Under the pieces are notes generated by a model. That model did not search any database. It was not told the origin of the DNA and saw only the letters and a program-made list of their open reading frames with translations. Of a DNA stretch of 64,000 nt, positions 20,042-21,045 are shown piece by piece (position 1 is the stretch's first letter; the number at the start of each line of letters is the position of its first letter). The stretch spans positions 1 through 64,000 of the forward strand of contig NZ_SRLD01000008.1 in NCBI RefSeq assembly GCF_004745955.1, written 5' to 3'. The position numbers and the translations under genes are program-made. The DNA comes from Hymenobacter elongatus (GTDB taxonomy: Bacteria > Bacteroidota > Bacteroidia > Cytophagales > Hymenobacteraceae).

Positions 20042-20064
20042 CGGAAGTTCGTTGCTCCCCATCG

Positions 20065-20230
20065 GTCATCCTGAGCCGGCGAAGGATCTTCCTCTGTTAG
20101 TGGCAAACGTACAGCAACGCCCAAAATCCCTGTACTGCCGGCGCAGTACAGGGATTTTGGGCGTTGGCAAGAGCTGAAGTGGGGCAGGTGAGGAAGGTCC
20201 TTCGCTGTGCTTCGCGCCATTCAGGATGAC
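20065..20230. repeat. Palindromic repeat with 24-bp perfect inner hairpin
   Basis: The outer ends are GTCATCCTGAGCC...GAAGGATCTTCCTC on the left and GAGGAAGGTCCTTCGC...TTCAGGATGAC on the right. The inner arms, 20115-20138 and 20143-20166, are perfect complements around CGGC. It belongs to the same family as 14752-14923. It lies between the thioesterase stop (20256) and the FAD gene's promoter. Confidence 0.8.
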
Positions 20231-20255
20231 AGACGGAAAGGGTAGAAGACCGCCC

Positions 20256-20648
20256 TTACTCGGTCATAATCCGCACGGGACGCTTCTGGGCATCGATGGC
20301 GACGAACGTAAACAGGCCCGTGACGGCCTTGGTGCGCTCCTCAGAATACATCTGTTCCACGAACAAATCGACGCGCACCTGCAGGCTGGTGTTGCCCACG
20401 CGCACCACGTTGCCGATCAGCTCGACGAGCGTGCCACCGGGAATGGGGTGGGTGAAATCGACTTTGTCGGACGATACGGTTACCATCTTGAGGCGGCTGA
20501 AGCGGGTGGCCGTGATGAAGGCTACCTCGTCCATCATGTGCAGCGTAGTGCCGCCAAAGAGCGTGTCGTAGTGGTTGGTGGTGTTGGGGAATACCGCTTT
20601 GAAAATACGGGTTTCGGCGCGGGCAATCTTCTCGTCGAGAGCAAGCAT
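20256..20648 (-). CDS. Acyl-CoA thioesterase, hotdog fold (YciA/BACH type)
   Basis: The 130-residue protein starts at ATG 20648; the GTG at 20780 adds a basic leader with no similarity. Single hotdog domain: ETRIFKAVFPNTTNHYDTLFGG, the helix TTLHMMDEVAFITATRF, then VDFTHPIPGGTLVELIGNVVRVG and VRVDLFVEQM. It hydrolyses acyl-CoA to free acid and CoA; chain-length preference is not visible. It is the first gene downstream of a cobalamin riboswitch 180 nt away on the same strand, an unusual arrangement discussed in the findings. Confidence 0.88.
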   Translation of the reverse strand: MLALDEKIARAETRIFKAVFPNTTNHYDTLFGGTTLHMMDEVAFITATRFSRLKMVTVSSDKVDFTHPIPGGTLVELIGNVVRVGNTSLQVRVDLFVEQMYSEERTKAVTGLFTFVAIDAQKRPVRIMTE

Positions 20649-20827
20649 GGAAGGGAGGAAAAGGAGGAAAGAAACATCCGTTGCTGATTTCCGGCTCCCA
20701 CGCACTACCCCAACCGTCGGGAGGAAACGCGGCTGCCCAGCGCCGACGCCCAAACGCGCCCGCGCCAACAAACACCCCACTCGTACCCGACAAGAGCCTC
20801 ATAGCGCGAAGGCAACCTTATCCAATC

Positions 20828-21004
20828 GGCGCAAGGCAGGTCTCCTGACTTATACCAGTTTCACCGCCCTTCTCCCTCCGGTTTCGGGCCGGAAGAATGG
20901 GCTGTAGCGTGGTGAAAACCAACTCGGTACTTACAGTAGCGCGTCTGTCCGGGATTCGCACCCGGTTCCCTATTAATCCCGGTATTACCCGGAAACCTTG
21001 TGCC
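20828..21004 (-). promoter_or_regulatory. Cobalamin (adenosylcobalamin) riboswitch
   Basis: Read on the minus strand, this 177-nt region has the landmarks of the cobalamin riboswitch. P1 is GGCACAAGG (21004-20996) with CCTTGCGCC (20836-20828). The core follows, GGGAACCGGGTGCGAATCCC then GGACAGACGCGCTACTGTAA, and last the B12 box AGTCAGGAGACCTGCC (about 20850-20835). It carries a TACCTTTG promoter element just upstream. The expected action is ligand-induced repression of the downstream transcript. The only gene downstream is an acyl-CoA thioesterase. Confidence 0.95.
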
Positions 21005-21037
21005 GTCTGACCGAAATCAAACCAAGAACAACTGCGC

Positions 21038-21045
21038 CAAAGGTA
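21038..21045 (-). promoter_or_regulatory. Probable -7 element for the riboswitch transcript
   Basis: The minus strand reads TACCTTTG, an exact match to TAnnTTTG, 34 bp before the riboswitch P1 stem. This indicates that the riboswitch is still transcribed from its own promoter. Confidence 0.6.

Follow-up and report, generated by a model that had tools for sequence, protein, structure and literature searches.

Why should a riboswitch for cobalamin stand ahead of a gene for an acyl-CoA thioesterase? The available text of one survey divides the targets of cobalamin riboswitches into four classes, namely synthesis, B12 transport, cobalt transport and isozymes (PMC3766115), and a thioesterase seems to fit none of the classes given there. 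Such a pair occurs on the minus strand of the 64,000-nucleotide stretch of Hymenobacter elongatus DNA analysed here (the window). A sequence-only reading of this locus had proposed either that a B12 gene was deleted from between the two elements, leaving an orphan switch, or that acyl-CoA hydrolysis is tied to B12 status, for example through methylmalonyl- or propionyl-CoA metabolism. Based on the comparisons presented below we favour, with somewhat better than even confidence, a working cobalamin riboswitch through which B12 represses the thioesterase gene, as a member of a B12-shortage regulon, the proposed purpose being to clear acyl-CoA at a methylmalonyl-CoA mutase deprived of its cofactor.

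Rfam cmscan identified the aptamer (RF00174), running from P1 to the B12 box, at 20818..21015 (minus strand), scoring 97.4 bits where 31.5 is the gathering threshold (E 4.5e-23) and with model positions 1-189 all covered, in agreement with the initial description of the riboswitch as complete; its B12 box reads AGTCAGGAGACCTGCC. The Rfam boundaries revise two details of that description: the aptamer starts at 21015 rather than 21004, and its end lies 169 nt, not 180 nt, from the ATG of the thioesterase, which it does face on the same strand. A scan of the whole genome recovered the window copy (E 8.2e-25) and one further RF00174 copy at C60:186643, followed by a TonB receptor and then a DUF5074 protein, an arrangement of the usual B12-uptake type. 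The promoter box previously assigned to the window riboswitch was also recovered, as a promoter-like box of the Bacteroidota -7 type, TACCTTTG, read directly from the sequence at 21038..21045 (minus strand). Within 120 nt upstream of the riboswitch, an exact TAnnTTTG was found in 32 of 91 leaders, the window included, compared with 41 of 1820 shuffles (2.3%), and it lies 26-35 nt before the riboswitch in 28 of these 32. The exact box was absent from the same 120 nt in the other 59 leaders, and a TTG at the -33 place accompanied it in just 2 of the 32.

Behind the aptamer lies a P13-like hairpin (20789..20822, minus strand), a putative expression platform, whose loop UUCGCG (20810-20805) is complementary, with one G-U pair, to the UGCGAA of aptamer loop L5. 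Predicted hairpins with CGCG or UCGC in the loop were found in 61 of 90 leaders (one of the 91 being left out, its B12 box not matching the pattern), compared with 2 of 90 when the frame was slid 72 nt downstream and 4 of 90 mononucleotide shuffles. L5-L13 covariation was not seen by eye in the leaders, where L13 is nearly invariant and L5 variable. The remainder of the leader (20649..20788, minus strand) is poorly conserved by leader comparison, and places the thioesterase ATG approximately 140 nt beyond the hairpin; long leaders behind the aptamer are usual here, with 218 and 225 nt separating aptamer and ATG in the metE leaders of loci L123 and L127, respectively. A terminator scan of the window leader found none, and folding of the whole leader indicated no excess stability (z -0.61).

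The gene that follows (20256..20648, minus strand; ATG at 20648, stop at 20256) encodes a 130-residue protein predicted as an acyl-CoA thioesterase of the 4HBT/hotdog family, with a PF03061 match of 59.2 bits against a cut-off of 20.6. A profile of nine thioesterase relatives matches solved acyl-CoA hydrolases, which make up most of the matched chains whose function is named, and the Asn of TNHY and the Asp of MDE, which we take to be catalytic, are invariant across the nine. The protein sequence indicates a thioesterase rather than a mutase, reductase or methyltransferase, with one weak, sub-cut-off match to an ammonia-lyase, and we regard the product as a predicted acyl-CoA hydrolase. A second thioesterase, about 38% identical, is present in many of the same Hymenobacter genomes. 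The orthologue at L119, in the fragmented assembly G107, has one in-frame TGA and is possibly decaying.

Between the thioesterase and the next gene, the window also contains a pair of perfectly matching inverted arms of 24 bp around a loop of 4 nt (20115-20166), itself enclosed by an imperfect inverted repeat of 16 bp (20059-20074 / 20221-20236). Motifs similar to GTCATCCTGAGC occur as pairs in opposite orientation (e.g. 14753/14912, 20065/20219, 43555/43632, 45472/45553 and 61302/61380); 16 matches at two or fewer mismatches were found in the window against 4.5 expected, and the pairs have the look of a REP/MITE-type family of intergenic repeats.

Across 120 Hymenobacter genomes, a close orthologue of the thioesterase was identified in 81. 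Of these 81 orthologues, 76 are preceded on their own strand by a cobalamin riboswitch, 73 of them directly, with a gap of 148-212 nt. The search reached about 6 kb upstream at Hymenobacter and family loci, less at contig ends, and within this range no riboswitch was found at five Hymenobacter thioesterase loci (L097, L110, L117, L122 and L132). Every one of the 120 genomes has at least one cobalamin riboswitch; two or more are present in 79 of the 81 genomes with the thioesterase, and exactly one in 35 of the 39 without it. The presence of a second riboswitch thus goes hand in hand with that of the thioesterase in this genus. We also observed PF07685, a corrin-synthesis marker, in four of the five genomes whose thioesterase lacks a riboswitch (G013, G019, G105, G086 and G113) compared with 12 of the 76 others; loss of the riboswitch in B12 makers is treated as suggestive, because three of the five genomes represent one clade.

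Beyond the genus, 26 loci with the thioesterase orthologue came from two more genera in the same family (g5 and g6). A riboswitch precedes the gene at 18 of them, with Rfam agreeing at all 15 of the loci submitted to it; no riboswitch was found upstream at the remaining eight. These pairs stand among different flanking genes, for example recG (by inspection of the sequence). Two genomes of a further genus (g2) possess a riboswitch and metE followed by a broken or frameshifted thioesterase. Elsewhere in the order, 60 of 95 non-family loci were sampled, comprising 40 chosen for spread across genera, then 20 that take in all 11 genomes still left without a mutase match, plus nine others; a riboswitch was identified upstream of the thioesterase at 28 of the 60 and was not found upstream at 32. 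Among the 22 positives of the first 40 loci, metE lies between riboswitch and thioesterase in 13 and a btuB-like receptor in six, while one is a direct pair (L222) and two have short gaps, of which L220 retains 42 residues of metE and L229 contains another small frame. Three of the six positives among the last 20 loci also have metE in between, giving intact metE at 16 of the 60 (13 + 3).

Among named Bacteroidota, represented by the best 80 of at least 581 relatives, nhmmer detected a riboswitch upstream on the same strand at 60 loci, of which 25 are direct pairs, 18 have metE in between and 17 have other arrangements; 14 of the 25 direct pairs belong to Chryseobacterium, with gaps of 113-125 nt. 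At the other 20 of these best 80 nhmmer found no riboswitch, and two of them (L278 and L281) do have metE upstream. An Rfam recheck of 23 of the 60 nhmmer positives confirmed 20, one of them under RF01482, and left the riboswitches of L299, L300 and L316 unconfirmed; six nhmmer-negative named loci were again negative. The upstream stretch at order and named loci was 4.5-6 kb, less at contig ends. At none of 227 loci was a riboswitch found in the other orientation or downstream of the thioesterase, which is a fair control for the named loci because 75 of the best 80 hold at least 3 kb downstream. Some named loci come from the same genomes as loci of other levels, and counts of different levels are therefore not to be summed. 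The linkage of riboswitch to thioesterase is a maintained unit. Conserved and fixed in orientation, it supports the regulatory part of the suggestion that acyl-CoA hydrolysis is tied to B12 status; the methylmalonyl- or propionyl-CoA substrate stays a proposal.

Other neighbours of the thioesterase were also recorded; most of the PAS and Cys-rich proteins, like the btuB-like receptors, were named by inspection of the sequence, with Pfam used on single examples. A small PAS-domain protein, which may belong to the same regulon, recurs in the interval that separates the thioesterase from metE (or from the riboswitch), at L248:3923-4480 (Pfam) and at L240, L289 and the L109 gap (by inspection). 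A short Cys-rich CWC protein is encoded immediately ahead of the thioesterase at L244 (Pfam, with DUF5522) and at L234, L250, L299, L279 and L290. At L299:5083-8358 the thioesterase is flanked by a DUF6580 protein and a CobT-family phosphoribosyltransferase, and DUF6580-like frames were seen, by inspection, near the thioesterase of L260 and L279; these DUF6580 and CobT-family neighbours are possibly B12- or cobalt-related. The gene order and proteins of L308 (CP034120.1, Glaciecola amylolytica) resemble those of the Fluviicola locus L319, and it is probably a mislabelled Bacteroidota genome.

The gap between riboswitch and thioesterase does contain a B12 gene in relatives, as the deletion proposal would have it: metE is intact there in Hymenobacter G070 and G090 (L123 and L127) and at the 16 order loci, it is also present there at the 18 named loci, and a btuB-like receptor occupies the gap in some relatives. 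Because metE stands in the gap of these relatives, the deleted gene of the sequence-only reading is possible in the form of an old metE loss. Further traces include the start of metE in the gap of G033 (L109), and a piece of metE before the thioesterase of G086 (L122), where no riboswitch is left. metE matches were found in only 6 of 120 Hymenobacter genomes, one of them a fragment, and MetH in all 120, which makes metE redundant in the genus. Three genomes (G002, G017 and G055) have metE elsewhere with its own riboswitch, and their thioesterase retains another.

From the remnants in G033, G086 and L220, the redundancy of metE beside a universal MetH, and the 16 of 60 order loci with metE in between, it could be argued that the riboswitch is a functionless orphan, left before the thioesterase by chance once metE was deleted. 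We consider this very improbable, since a dead scar would be expected to decay, yet the pair and the hairpin behind the aptamer have been kept. The direct pair persists at 73 of 81 Hymenobacter loci and at 18 of 26 in g5 and g6, and the second riboswitch is missing where the thioesterase is missing. Among the 80 named loci there are 25 direct pairs, including the 14 of Chryseobacterium. Pair retention, co-loss and hairpin conservation led us to reject a functionless deletion scar, and with it the orphan-switch part of the deletion proposal.

Phylogenetic reconstruction bears on when metE might have been lost. In the thioesterase tree (128 columns, with many weak forks, and G107 left out for its in-frame stop), the four metE-linked loci L109, L122, L123 and L127 join the direct-pair loci L126 and L131 in a six-row cluster (SH-aLRT 93) that is open inside and nested among further direct-pair genomes. 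A MetH tree of 16 genomes places G070, G086 and G090 together and G033 elsewhere, and the conflict between its two placements suggests that the arrangement reached G033 by transfer. Given this nesting and the conflicting placement of G033, repeated loss of metE inside Hymenobacter is not claimed. Because the cluster with the metE-linked loci is nested among direct-pair genomes, with a suggested transfer to G033, the direct pair looks, on weak tree support, older than the metE arrangement within Hymenobacter; the order-level abundance of riboswitch-metE-thioesterase also makes an ancient metE loss before Hymenobacter plausible. Under either history the riboswitch is retained for the thioesterase.

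Because the pairing recurs across Bacteroidota, often beside metE or B12 uptake genes, the thioesterase is probably part of the response to B12 shortage in this phylum. Partners of this kind are metE, at 16 of 60 order loci and at riboswitch loci numbering 18 among the named best 80 of at least 581, and btuB-like receptors, at 6 of 40 order loci. In a Flavipsychrobacter assembly (L289, 1045-5070), nrdB-nrdA has a riboswitch of its own, and another lies ahead of the thioesterase and a small PAS-like frame. According to the available text of two previous studies, a riboswitch-controlled gene of B. thetaiotaomicron is repressed approximately 70-fold at 37 nM cyanocobalamin (PMC6143338), and AdoCbl riboswitches usually rely on a pseudoknot, formed in response to the ligand, in which a loop pairs with a sequence outside the aptamer core (PMC2258182). 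Since known Bacteroides switches repress and AdoCbl switches act in this manner, B12 most likely represses the thioesterase gene as well. Plentiful cobalamin would bind the aptamer, and L5 of the bound form would dock with the loop of the downstream hairpin, a step that we infer only, turning expression off; when cobalamin is short, the thioesterase would be made as a member of a B12-shortage regulon together with metE and B12 uptake genes. Genome G000 has MetH and no metE or PF07685 match, and so probably depends on imported B12 for methionine. Without metE, total B12 starvation in the absence of methionine would stop growth anyway, and a shortage response would therefore be useful only when some B12 is still available or methionine is provided.

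What might such a response achieve? Methionine synthase and ribonucleotide reductase can be replaced by enzymes that need no B12; for methylmalonyl-CoA mutase we know of no such replacement. The purpose that we favour, as yet unproven, is clearance of acyl-CoA stalled at the idle mutase: the thioesterase would hydrolyse methylmalonyl-, propionyl- or related CoA piling up at the cofactor-less enzyme, and CoA would be freed. The mutase (PF01642) was identified in 119 of 120 Hymenobacter genomes, the sole genome without a match being the fragmented G107, which does have the thioesterase, and in all 50 named genomes tested (30 with and 20 without an nhmmer riboswitch, drawn from the 80 named genomes). 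Elsewhere in the order, it is present in 82 of 94 genomes with the thioesterase compared with 155 of 217 without, and a riboswitch precedes the thioesterase at 26 of 48 loci with the mutase compared with 2 of 12 without. Both associations are of modest strength, with Fisher p of 0.002 and 0.025, respectively, in statistics that ignore phylogeny. No mutase match was found in 12 of the 94 order genomes with the thioesterase, two of which have riboswitch-metE-thioesterase. Because most thioesterases of mutase-less order genomes are more divergent in sequence, they may form a different subgroup. All 39 Hymenobacter genomes without the thioesterase have the mutase, which indicates that the thioesterase is dispensable. 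We put forward only tentatively, at a little less than an even chance, that the pair is a dedicated Bacteroidota valve for B12 shortage, in which a riboswitch-controlled thioesterase clears methylmalonyl- or propionyl-CoA stalled at the apo-mutase.

The neighbours of the thioesterase could point elsewhere. metE, btuB-like receptors, DUF5074, a periplasmic binding protein and the CobT-family protein of L299, a locus whose riboswitch Rfam left unconfirmed, would suit an enzyme serving B12 uptake, cobamide remodelling or methionine/one-carbon metabolism rather than mutase overflow. Such a role seems unlikely for a protein related to acyl-CoA hydrolases, and we know of no thioester step in cobamide uptake or in the MetE reaction. 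It is likewise doubtful that the enzyme is a general fatty acyl-CoA thioesterase tuning lipid and CoA pools in B12 shortage, with no special link to methylmalonyl-CoA. Its relatives ACOT7 and YciA have broad acyl-CoA specificity, as a general role would imply. Lipid genes are also possible riboswitch targets, because a fatty-acid desaturase is reported behind a cobalamin riboswitch in the available text of a metagenomic study (PMC2211319). However, many genomes hold the second, roughly 38% identical copy, so that a copy under B12 control calls for a B12-specific reason.

We found no description of a cobalamin riboswitch with a thioesterase target in the open-licence literature searched; where both terms occur in one paper, its available passages do not connect them, and 'thioester' is absent from the main text, as available, of PMC2211319, PMC6143338, PMC8941943, PMC2258182 and PMC3766115. 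Taken together, these findings point to an additional kind of target for one of the most widespread riboswitches, make a connection between vitamin status and acyl-CoA clearance testable across a large phylum, and suggest a role for a thioesterase family present in many Bacteroidota genomes. If the favoured purpose is true, B12 shortage would be met also by clearing the stalled pathway of the only common B12 enzyme with no substitute known to us, beyond enzyme swaps or more import. This would constitute a third arm of the shortage response besides MetE and B12-independent ribonucleotide reductase, and the targets of cobalamin riboswitches would gain another functional class, the clearing of a blocked pathway.

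Compared with known RF00174 systems controlling metE or btuB, the window shares the aptamer family, the strand, a similar leader length and the kind of downstream hairpin, and in many relatives those genes form one transcription unit with the thioesterase; the immediate target in the window, in contrast, is an acyl-CoA thioesterase. Its product belongs to PF03061 like the 4HBT acyl-CoA hydrolases (YciA, ACOT7, PDB 2gvh and 2eis), but falls far under the cut-off of the NCBIfam YciA equivalog NF007970 (52 vs 162 bits) and is encoded behind a B12 riboswitch. Mammals display methylmalonyl-CoA hydrolase activity in B12 deficiency, and hydrolysis of the mutase substrate when B12 is short is also the purpose proposed here. 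Another unusual target is the fatty-acid desaturase ole1, reported behind a cobalamin riboswitch in metagenome fragments (PMC2211319): it too is a lipid-related enzyme outside the usual target classes, but it is a different enzyme, which the authors of that study explained by proposing two isozymes, one dependent on B12 and one independent of it.
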